The position numbers were made by a program, and so were the translations under genes. Shown here piece after piece: positions 60,986 through 64,000 of a stretch of 64,000 nucleotides of DNA. Below the pieces are notes generated by a model. That model was not told where the DNA came from and did not search any database. It was given only the letters and a program-made list of their open reading frames with translations. Origin of the DNA: Halichondria panicea (lineage: Eukaryota > Porifera > Demospongiae > Suberitida > Halichondriidae); the NCBI RefSeq assembly GCF_963675165.1, contig NC_087390.1:3796001-3860000 (forward strand), in the 5' to 3' direction. Numbering within the stretch: position 1 is the stretch's first letter; each line of letters begins with the position of its first letter.

Positions 60986-61263
60986 AAATTTTTGTGCAGT
61001 ATTAATTTTTTGCAGTGGAGTTTACCTTCGCTTGCCTGGTCAGCCATAGGAGAGCAAGGAAGGGCGGGCTCAATGCAGAGAGGGGGAGTGGCTCAGTGGG
61101 GAGGAGCTGGAAGGAGCCAGTTTGTGGGAGTGGCAATTCCTGGGCAGCCCGTCCATTCGCACATACCAATGCAACGCATATACGCCATTGTTTTTTTTTT
61201 GCAGTTTAGTATGTTGCGGTAGTTATGGTGGTCATTCAGCAACCAATCAGATGGGACATATAT

Positions 61264-61370
61264 CAGTTAATGCACAGTGCCTCGGGGTTTATGACACACC
61301 ACCCCTCGGGCTCACCTCGTAGTCGGGAGGTTTACTGTCATAAACCCCTCTACACTGTGCATTAACTAAT
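61264..61370. repeat. Hairpin, arms GTTAATGCACAGTG / GGGTTTATGACA
   Basis: AGTTAATGCACAGTG...GGGTTTATGACA pairs with TGTCATAAACCC...CACTGTGCATTAACT around a loop of about 40 bases. Likely a small foldback MITE. Confidence 0.65.
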
Positions 61371-61675
61371 ACATATAATTATATGTACATGATATATATA
61401 ATTTATATAGTATGTACATGATATACAGTATGCATGATATAGTATGCATGATATAGCTACCATAAAAGCGCGTAATTTTCGGGGGACAAAATATTCGTGG
61501 TTCAGCAATATTGAGACATTTCGTGGATAATATTTTCGTGGTAGCAGTTTGATGAAACCACACCCATCCAATAATTACAATTAGAAAACGTAGCTAAGGC
61601 ATCTGGCTGCATGCTGGAACCTCTGTACCGTCTTGCAAGCTTGTCTAACTTGCAAGCTTGTCTAACATCATATTA

Positions 61676-62541
61676 TGGCTGTCTTTTTTGAAGTCAGAGC
61701 TATGATACGAGGATATCATGAGTACCAACACATTTGGAATGCTGTGATAGTAGCAATTCTCATGATCTCTATGCTGTGGCCATAATGAAGTCTGGAGTTG
61801 TCGTCGGGCATGTTCCACGCAAAATATCATCTATATGCACACTGTTTCTTCGACGTGGAGGAACCATGTATTGTACGGTTATAGGGATAAGGCACTATTC
61901 TGAAGATTTAGTGCAAGGTGGTCTTGAAATACCTTGTGTTCTACGCTTTGAAGGTAGCGAGTTTTATGCTTCTAAAGCTGAAATACTGATTAAATCTGCT
62001 CTTGGTTCTATTAAAAACGTATCCGAGCAATCTGATGTTGGTGCTGAAGCTGTGACAGTTAAAAAGAGAAAGTTGATGGATGATAAGCCGATGACTGTAC
62101 AGTGTCATCATGATTGAAAGGTGATAAGTTAAATGATCTCCACGTCAACTATGCTCAGAAGTTATTGAAAAGACAATTTCCCAACCTCAATGGGTTTCAA
62201 TCAACGCTCTTACAACAAAGGGGTGTAACTGAAAGTGCATTACAGTTACAGTACAGTTACAGCTACAAATCATACATTGCCGAGAAGACCACTGGATTGC
62301 AGCATCCACTATTGGTTGTAGAGCAAATGAGGTGAATGTATACGATTCTGTGATGTTTCATACGCGAAACACTAAAATGCAGCCTTTACAGAAACAAATT
62401 GGTGGGGCAGATTGTGGTCTGTTTGCCATAGCAGTAATTACCTCTATTGCATATGGCACTGATCCTTGCCAAACACATTTCAAGCAAGAAGATATGAGAA
62501 AACATATCCTGAAATGCTTTGGAGAGGAACACAAATTATGA
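61676..62541 (+). CDS. HIRAN-like plus Ulp1/C48 SUMO-protease-like protein
   Basis: The start at 61676 reads MAVFFEVRAMIRGYHEYQHI, then (after one frame change at about 61735) CDSSNSHDLYAVAIMKSG, VVVGHVPRKISSICTLFLRR and GGLEIPCVLRFEG, resembling a HIRAN-type domain. A basic KKRKL patch follows. The second half reads LNDLHVNYAQKLLKRQFPNL, IIHCREDHWIAAST (catalytic H), NEVNVYDSV (D), PLQKQIGGADCGLFAIAV (Q and C) and ends with a helix at 62541. H-D-Q-C in this order is the Ulp1/C48 cysteine protease triad plus oxyanion Gln; such enzymes cut SUMO-like modifiers. Frame changes at about 61735, 62115 and 62241-62262 (an 11-bp tandem duplication) split it; whether these are real is open. Confidence 0.65.
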
Positions 62542-62689
62542 TTGATCATGAACTTAAGTTGACTGCCTGTTACTTGTTTAATATATATACACATGCATGG
62601 AGTGGTCTTTATTTATTTTATGTTTTTCAGGCCGTAGAATCTTACTATACCCTTGTCCAACCTCCCAATGTCGTGCGTGCTTATATATA

Positions 62690-63886
62690 AAATTTTTCAA
62701 CTGCCAAAAATAGTCAAGTAAGTAATCAGCTGTAATACCCGCTCCAGTAAATCCGTTCTTTAATAATATCTGGATGTGATTTGAGGAACCATCTGGCCAC
62801 TAGTGGTTTAACAATGCTCAGTCTCAAATCTACAGGCTATTTGCTGCCTTAATCTGACGCATAAACACTTTGGCACATCTAACATCTAGGGGCTGTAAGC
62901 GATCAGTACTGTAAGCGATCAGTACAGTTGGCGGGTATATCGAAATTGCTTTTCTGCAGAAGCTCCAAAATTGCTGGTGTACATTGGCCCTTAAATTTGT
63001 CGTAAATAACCAGAGCATGACATAGGGCACAAGACAATATAGTCTTTCATCGTAAGTTCATTTGACCAATGATTTGGACTGTGGATTATATGCCAATCGG
63101 TTGGAAAATTGTACACAGGGTGGGTGGTATAACAGTTGCATAGGCAAGAAATCACCACTCATCGAGACCCCGAAAACAGCTGCCTTTTGTCATCAATCCC
63201 ACAAATCTCAACACGCTTAGATCCCATTGTCCAGGATGATACAGGGACATTCCTGTTAGGTCCCAATTGATAACTAGGTCCAAAGGGATACTCTCCATGC
63301 TGACACAGGCTTTGATGTCCAATAAAAATTGCTCTTTCTTGTCGATACCTTAGCCTTAGTGCTAGCCCTTCGTTTAACCATTCCCATTTCCCCACCATTT
63401 AGTATATGACCACCATTACAGGTAAGCATGTTGGCGTCTACACTTTTAACTATTCCTTCTGCACAAGCACCACGTTCTCGAAAGTTAGTTAAGTATTCCC
63501 GCACCGCACTTGCCTATCCATCTCCTCGCCAAGCAATAGTGGTCTACCTTTCTTGTTACACCTGTAGATCTACTTGATATCTTCTTTCTTCAATCCGATA
63601 TGCCAATCTCTCACAGTATTTTCTTTTAAAGCTGGAAATTCTTTATATAATTCCGAACCGCAGCAGTTACACCATTCTCTGCAGCAAAGACGGCTTTTTG
63701 CTTTTGGGTAAATTTGGCATAGAAGCCCCTAGTCTTAGTAACAGTAGTTGAGCTTGTAGACAGGTTTGATTCTTTTAAAAGTTCCCTCACTTTAGAATTG
63801 GCACCTAGAATGGAACTCTTTGGGATAGATCTTGCAAGTAGACCACGCTTTCCTCCTTGCTGAAGTATTTCCAAAGAGCCATTCAT
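62690..63886 (-). CDS. pogo/Tigger-like transposase
   Basis: The start at 63886 reads MNGSLEILQQGGKRG. Next comes the helix-turn-helix: YAKFTQKQKAVFAAENGVTA, FPALKENTVRDWHIGLKKED and KKGRPLLLGEEMDRQVREYL, then NGGHI and VKRRASTKAKVS. Catalytic core: CGIDDKRQL (first D), VFGVSMSGDFLPMQLLYHP, NHWSNELTMKDYI, LVIYDKFKGQCTPAILELLQ (second D region) and CTDRLQPLDV (the conserved pogo motif). The tail is KPLVARWFL...NGFTGAGITADYLL, to about 62690. Domain order and length (about 400 residues) fit a complete DDE_1 transposase. It is broken by a few single-base shifts and by a perfect 16-bp duplication at 62893-62924 within the TDRLQPLD region. Confidence 0.8.
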
Positions 63887-64000
63887 CAGAGAGCAGCCAC
63901 AGCGCAGCAGGCAGGTAAAAAATGTTATTCGTGGGATATTCGTGGTCCAGTGTTCAACCACGAAAACCACGAATATTTTGCCCCACGAAAATTACACGCT

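Follow-up and report, generated by a model that had tools for sequence, protein, structure and literature searches.

Introduction

DNA transposons of the pogo superfamily (Tigger and others, within IS630-Tc1-mariner) are described in the accessible text of a survey as elements of 1.2-5.2 kb with one or two transposase open reading frames (ORFs) of DD29-56D type, which mostly produce TA duplications outside the Fot group and which have given their hosts genes such as CENPB and POGZ (PMC7386202). Here, a pogo-type element is analyzed that lies at the right edge of the window, a stretch of 64,000 nucleotides from the sponge Halichondria panicea (NCBI RefSeq assembly GCF_963675165.1, contig NC_087390.1, positions 3,796,001 to 3,860,000, forward strand). 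Convergent to its transposase gene, the element carries a second gene that joins a HIRAN part to an Ulp1-type (Peptidase_C48, or C48) protease part. Its likeness to the pogo superfamily comprises the DDE_1 transposase, the TA duplication, the inverted ends, a length of ~2.5-3 kb and, in a relative at locus L050, DD35D spacing as judged by eye. The difference is the extra HIRAN-C48 gene, which is unrelated to the transposase, whereas the ORFs in the accessible part of the survey encode transposases (PMC7386202).

Ulp1 in transposons is already known. The available portion of the Ginger1 report describes Ginger1 as animal transposons with transposases that carry Ulp1, once with PHD, notes Ulp1 also in Mutators of plants and animals, and proposes that Ulp1 or OTU acts in repair after transposition (PMC2836005). 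The Ginger1 Ulp1 domain is, however, C-terminal in a Gypsy-integrase-like transposase of another superfamily, and that portion reports no HIRAN (PMC2836005); here the protease is encoded by a separate gene on the strand opposite to a DDE_1 transposase. At the protein level, the HIRAN part shares the fold of the HLTF/Rad5 HIRAN but is fused to a protease, is accompanied by neither helicase nor RING in the same protein, and has the DNA-bordering tyrosines replaced according to the alignment. The C48 part shares fold and catalytic residues with the SENP/Ulp1 proteases, from which it differs as a compact catalytic part of ~170 residues behind an N-terminal HIRAN. Mutator-like elements, with their MULE transposase and longer target duplications, resemble the present element in encoding an Ulp1-type protease and differ from it in superfamily, as the present element has a DDE_1 transposase and a TA duplication.

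No description of a pogo element with a HIRAN or Ulp1 partner was found among the matches listed from the open-licence literature, a body that does not cover Repbase Reports, where prior naming is possible. The word 'protease' is absent from the main text of the pogo survey as available (PMC7386202), and the accessible text of a second survey mentions neither protease nor sponge (PMC7325037). Among the literature matches listed for HIRAN with transposase, Ulp1, pogo, Tigger or mariner there is no such element, a study of fungal transposons that carry TET/JBP genes contains no pogo, HIRAN or SUMO, and a search for relatives among viral contigs (alignment A1) gave 22 pattern matches, none confirmed. 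Where the original prediction spoke of an undescribed system, we prefer to regard the pogo element with HIRAN and Ulp1 as a new combination of known parts.

Results

Anatomy of the window element

The window copy occupies positions 61460-64006 (2547 bp) with TA on both flanks, both genomic flanks having been read, and its two ends are inverted copies of each other (Table 1). The left end predicted at 61460 proved exact, and the expected right TA end was located when the check was run past the window edge, six bases beyond it. Inside the ends, a minus-strand DDE transposase relic faces a plus-strand HIRAN and Peptidase_C48 gene; frame changes disrupt both genes, and the window copy is therefore a relic. 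This two-gene anatomy of ends, transposase and HIRAN-C48 partner is firm.

Table 1 Features of the pogo-type element in the window.
Feature	Position	Strand	Basis or remark
TA target-site duplication, left	61458..61459		right copy at 64007-64008, beyond the window
Left terminal inverted repeat	61460..61502	+	shared end type
HIRAN-Peptidase_C48 gene relic	61684..62520	+	tblastn with L050 protein, joint E 1e-52; Pfam
Four pieces of the gene relic	61684-61737, 61740-62069, 62117-62221, 62260-62520	+	frame changes or gaps between
HIRAN part and linker start	61740..62069	+	Pfam, tblastn with L050
Ulp1-type (C48) catalytic part	62260..62520	+	codons His 62290, Asp 62344, Gln 62395, Cys 62413
Pogo-type DDE transposase relic, in pieces	62762..63844	-	tblastn with L050 transposase, E 2e-22 and 2e-19, 31-48% identical; clade place
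Right terminal inverted repeat	63965..64000	-	continues to 64006 past the window

The Pfam HIRAN profile scores 20.6 bits on the first window frame (expectation value, E, of 4e-4), below its cut-off of 24.7, and the Peptidase_C48 profile scores 23.6 bits on the second frame, above its cut-off of 20.7. All four catalytic residues that had been read from the letters are present in Ulp1 order: H (EDHW), D (VYD), Q and C (GGADCG). The scanned transposase frames of the window gave no Pfam match; this gene was assigned by comparison with L050, where the transposase scores 43.4 bits against the DDE_1 profile (cut-off 22). The predicted pogo identity of the minus-strand gene was borne out by way of the relative. 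A search for an N-terminal helix-turn-helix (CENP-B_N, HTH_Tnp_Tc5 or psq) in the transposases gave an HTH_Tnp_Tc5 match of 16.8 bits at L010, below the 22.2 cut-off, and none at E 0.01 at L050.

Ends, short copies and relatives

In the host genome (G000; 131 Mb, 39 contigs), where the window corresponds to C14:3796001-3860000, the ends of the element are shared by dispersed short copies. At least 213 SRCR matches in this genome fit an invertebrate animal such as a sponge. Fourteen of these were fetched, each ~200 bases long and carrying both ends. The left end, TA followed by CCGTATAGC, is found in 13 of the 14 (L048 is without the TA), and the right end, GCTATACGG followed by TA, likewise in 13, with L041 differing by one change; the bounds of the window element were set from these shared ends. 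An exact-pattern search of G000 with the 23-base end TACCGTATAGCGNGTAATTTTCG, its TA included, gave 1079 matches, and the pattern read backwards gave 0. The short copies are non-autonomous miniature inverted-repeat transposable elements (MITEs), presumably moved by elements of the window type. Immediately left of the element, at 61255-61375, lies an inverted-repeat unit (gttaatgcacagtg ... cactgtgcattaac, recognized by eye) that is possibly another short mobile element.

Both ends with both genes inside were found for the window element and for the elements at L012 (2955 bp) and L050 (3011 bp). The L050 element (C5:639300-645000) is bounded by TA followed by CCGTATAGCGCG, with ends at 1214 and 4224, and has on its plus strand an open HIRAN-C48 frame (334 residues) and on its minus strand an open transposase frame (504 residues), arranged end to end. 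At L012 the matching ends lie at 1544 and 4498, and the protease frame is broken near its cysteine. The closest relative of the window element, at C3:5463022-5471988 (L002, L003), has an identical order of parts and 69-81% DNA identity, with ~6.5 kb of other DNA within the HIRAN part of its gene. A single end of the CCGTATAGC type was located by pattern at L010, L056 and L063; paired ends were not found for L009, L056 or L063, and at L015 and L062 an exact-pattern search, the only one made there, gave no result. A HIRAN-only pogo element of 2670 bases lies at L008:1010-3679 (C6:450209-452878), with TA followed by CAGTAGAACCTCGATTATCCGG at both ends; its genes are also convergent, comprising a 456-residue DDE_1 frame, preceded by a 131-residue frame, and a 126-residue HIRAN frame.

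Association with pogo transposases across the genome

Genome searches merged to 37 HIRAN loci and 63 transposase loci, counts that are lower bounds. A pogo transposase lies at most 6 kb from HIRAN at 15 of the 37 HIRAN loci, the window included, against a chance share of 0.6% per locus; the two genes are convergent at 12 of these loci, divergent at two and on the same strand at one. As a control, none of 75 dispersed end-copies lies within 6 kb of a transposase. HIRAN is joined by C48 at seven of the 15 loci (L010, L056, L009, the window, L012, L015 and L050), and the C3 relative, found by DNA search and tblastn, is an eighth HIRAN+C48 locus. No C48 was detected beside HIRAN at the other eight (L057, L007, L051, L060, L059, L008, L058 and L011). 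C48-like genes are common in the genome: 105 loci were obtained with the L009 protein as query, 15 of them near a pogo transposase.

Other settings of HIRAN were also seen. At L013, L014 and L024 (C8:4928427, C12:3243716 and C6:6923726) a HIRAN frame forms part of a multi-gene unit that recurs at all three places with the same neighbours and has no DDE_1 match within 6 kb, perhaps another HIRAN-bearing mobile element. At L019:149-1213 (C4:4692748-4693812) a 355-residue frame, Tc1/mariner-like transposase by eye, stands beside a HIRAN match at C4:4694596.

Conservation of the second gene

The HIRAN-C48 frames of L009, L010 and L050 are intact, measure 334-349 residues from stop to stop and are 43-44% identical. 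The HIRAN profile (PF08797) is over its cut-off in L009, L010, L012, L008 and L011 and under it in L050 (22.1) and L051 (16.8); the Peptidase_C48 profile (PF02902) is over its cut-off in the window, L009 and L050, and gives no match at E 0.01 in L010 or L012. The profiles, which the original prediction had allowed might fail on a consensus protein, are both over cut-off in L009, and both folds are recovered on the L050 model described below. The best solved relative of the C48 profile by sequence is SENP1. Among the C48 rows of alignment A2 that reach each place, examined by eye, the catalytic His is present in 17/17, Asp in 16/16, Cys in 15/15 and Gln in 15/16; the window, L050 and L009 have all four. 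The Cys region is lost at L012 through a frame change, and L031, outside A2, has Asn at the Asp place.

Among L009, L010 and L050, nonsynonymous change (dN) in the HIRAN-C48 gene is 0.54-0.60 and synonymous change (dS) is saturated (0.78-0.83); for the transposases of L050 and L010 the values are 0.34 and 0.84. With dS set at 3, the ratio is 0.18-0.20 for the second gene and 0.11 for the transposase, values that indicate long-term purifying selection acting on the two genes. The comparison of the window copy with the C3 relative (five pieces of 33-46 codons, four at dN/dS 0.36-0.87 and one without synonymous change) gives nothing firm.

Transposase, HIRAN and C48 trees

In a maximum-likelihood tree of the transposases (all 37 rows used, root by midpoint), 12 loci form one clade with 100/100 support, and a C48 gene is present at 10 of the 12 and HIRAN at nine. 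The original prediction had allowed that copies might never carry the plus-strand gene, or that it had entered a single copy by chance; instead, the pair recurs at eight clade loci: L010, L056, L009, the window, L012, L015, L050 and the C3 relative. C48 remnants are found at L061 and L063, and L051 is HIRAN-only with divergent gene order and a long branch. The group that joins this clade (98/95) contains five HIRAN-only rows and L077, whose partner content was not examined. The HIRAN-only L007 and L008 are placed in the other half of the tree, which means either that HIRAN is an old component of these elements that some have lost, or that it was acquired on two or more occasions. In the HIRAN tree (17 rows; L003 and L013 excluded for length) most branchings lack resolution, too many to discriminate between single and several HIRAN origins. 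In the C48 tree (22 rows; L061 excluded for length, L004 and L026 without a match) the HIRAN-linked C48 sequences are grouped at 80/88, in a fork that also takes in the unlinked L006.

Predicted structure of the second protein

The AlphaFold2 model of the L050 HIRAN-C48 protein, computed from a 23-row alignment, has a mean confidence score (pLDDT) of 84.7 and a predicted template modelling score (pTM) of 0.63, with low-confidence stretches at residues 16-19 and 124-152. Residues 1-120 match the DNA-bound HLTF HIRAN with a Z score of 13.4 (6kcs_A, 4xzf_A; 2.4 Å over 111 residues). Residues 157-324 match SENP5 (Z 16.4, 2.6 Å over 155 residues) and other SENP/Ulp1 proteases, the top four C48 fold matches being SENP5 and SENP3 at Z 15.8-16.4. 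On this modelling the HIRAN fold of the second protein is sure.

A second pogo lineage with an Ulp1-type gene

At L052 (C6:748456), L053 (C9:1840605), L054 (C1:14029408) and L055 (C16:3838732) a pogo transposase is followed downstream on the same strand by an Ulp1-type gene with a PHD-like end. The three transposases scanned, those of L052-L054, match DDE_1 and HTH_psq. The Ulp1-PHD proteins are 43-47% alike (tblastn with the L054 query) and keep the catalytic residues. The PHD profile is over its cut-off in L052 and L053, reaches 22.5 against 24 in L054 and is absent from the matches of the L055 frame, which is shorter; the Peptidase_C48 profile is over its cut-off in L055 only, with 19.5 against 20.7 in L054. 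A same-strand transposase lies within 8 kb (0.7-6.4 kb) at nine of the 15 best L054-protease matches (at least 47% identity, L054 included), and no Ulp1-PHD gene was found in the 5-8 kb read at seven further loci with the same transposase (L064-L070). The pogo-linked C48-PHD set forms one branch of the C48 tree (100/100), apart from the HIRAN-linked set. The simplest reading is that pogo elements acquired Ulp1 in two separate events.

Near-identical C48-PHD-like frames of 190-193 residues also occur in multiple copies (L005, L029, L030, L034, L035). At L005 the frame is preceded by one that looks like an integrase and contains a GPYF string, as would fit Ginger1; at the other four loci it is preceded by a tandem-repeat frame (QPPERDDP).

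Discussion

The element and its standing partner gene hold as originally predicted, and the role in SUMO removal, DNA-end binding, silencing or repair that had been attached to them stays conditional. As regards that role, we consider the chances about even that the second protein, as modeled, is a DNA-directed deSUMOylase that helps transposition. The element would move by ordinary cut-and-paste at TA. The HIRAN part would dock the second protein on DNA, either at broken ends or on the intermediate that forms when the element itself excises. The Ulp1 part would remove SUMO or a related modifier from nearby proteins, which may be the transposase, repair factors at the donor break or silencing factors that sit on the element. 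Removal of the modifier would then let transposition proceed.

Several observations weigh against this reading. Neither gene is confined to pogo elements, as 22 of the 37 HIRAN loci and 90 of the 105 C48-like loci have no pogo transposase nearby. Among the loci read, L050 alone has intact frames for both genes; L062, a member of the 12-locus clade, has no partner gene within the 4.5 kb read; and L010, though intact, carries Glu at the catalytic Gln place, the sole Gln exception in A2. In the close pair L009/L015, dN/dS is 0.67 over most of the second protein, compared with 0.19 over its end and 0.24 for the transposase. SUMO-acceptor motifs in the linkers of four proteins number 2 against 0.47 expected (p 0.075) and those of eight transposases are at chance. 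The idea that the transposase or the second protein is a SUMO substrate by virtue of its own SUMO sites is thus unsupported by motif counts.

The DNA-binding site of the HIRAN part also departs from that of HLTF, in which, according to the accessible text of a structural report, Y72 and Y93 border the bound dinucleotide or DNA cavity (PMC4666394). In a profile alignment, where the two places were located by their 21-residue spacing and the register could be off, the HIRAN-C48 proteins have V, I or T at the Y72 place and R, H, A or Q at the Y93 place. The HIRAN-only L008 has F and Y there. Near these places, in L050-row numbering, the HIRAN-C48 proteins have W22, N38 (nearly invariant) and D41 (invariant). 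With the HLTF tyrosines replaced in this alignment, the certainty that applies to the fold does not extend to function, and DNA-end binding by the HIRAN part is putative.

SUMO takes part in transposon silencing (a SUMO protocol for the Drosophila Piwi pathway is among the literature matches listed), and this established role underlies a different explanation, in which the protein strips SUMO from the host's heterochromatin or small-RNA silencing of transposons, has no direct role in excision and uses HIRAN as a mere tether to chromatin or DNA. The pairing of an Ulp1-type gene with a PHD finger, a chromatin reader, in other pogo elements of this genome fits such a chromatin-aimed protease, but the eight pogo loci that have HIRAN and no detected protease suggest a DNA-binding task independent of deSUMOylation, and we regard the explanation as somewhat unlikely. 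The modifier may also be another one, NEDD8 or ubiquitin, or the protease may process the transposase itself. The fold matches of the L050 model include the NEDD8 protease NEDP1/Den1 at Z 15.2, tied within 1 of Ulp1 (15.7) and SENP1 (15.6), as well as ubiquitin-acting proteases of the same clan, and they do not single out SUMO as the modifier. With SENP5 and SENP3 filling the four top rows and SENP1 as the profile's best solved relative, either alternative is nevertheless improbable.

The gene might also be a passenger, taken from the host a single time and playing no part in transposition. This would accord with the decay of the window copy and the C3 relative, with the partnerless L062 and with the dN/dS of 0.67 over most of the L009/L015 pair. 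A passenger appears very unlikely in view of the retention of the gene at 10 of the 12 clade loci, of three intact lineages at 43-44% identity and of a dN far under the saturated dS between L009, L010 and L050. Juxtaposition by chance, whether the plus-strand gene was inserted in one copy or is a neighbouring host gene, draws on the relic state of the window copy and on nothing else, and carries next to no probability; the repetition of the pair inside matching ends rules out a chance neighbour and a one-off capture by a single copy, and the convergent HIRAN-transposase proximity and the empty end-copy control point the same way.

To return to the DNA-directed deSUMOylase, its parts may have been assembled stepwise. 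HIRAN is the more widespread and perhaps the older partner, since other pogo lineages have it with no C48; the protease was perhaps added in one clade. A fuller scheme can be offered only tentatively: HIRAN would be a general partner of pogo here; one lineage would have fused it to Ulp1, giving a deSUMOylase aimed at DNA ends that clears the donor break or the transposase complex of SUMO, such that excision and repair favour the element; and the second lineage would have independently taken an Ulp1-PHD gene, aimed at chromatin, for the same purpose.

Because intact genes of both kinds are present in one genome, the guess, voiced in the available portion of the Ginger1 report, that transposon Ulp1 aids transposition becomes directly testable with one small protein (PMC2836005). 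Pogo elements are usually pictured as a transposase and its ends only. The gene pair described here suggests an element equipped with its own means of acting on host proteins at sites of DNA cleavage or silencing. If this is true, the conserved second protein with DNA-binding and deSUMOylase folds would mean that elements of this kind disturb the control that SUMO exerts over silencing or break repair.

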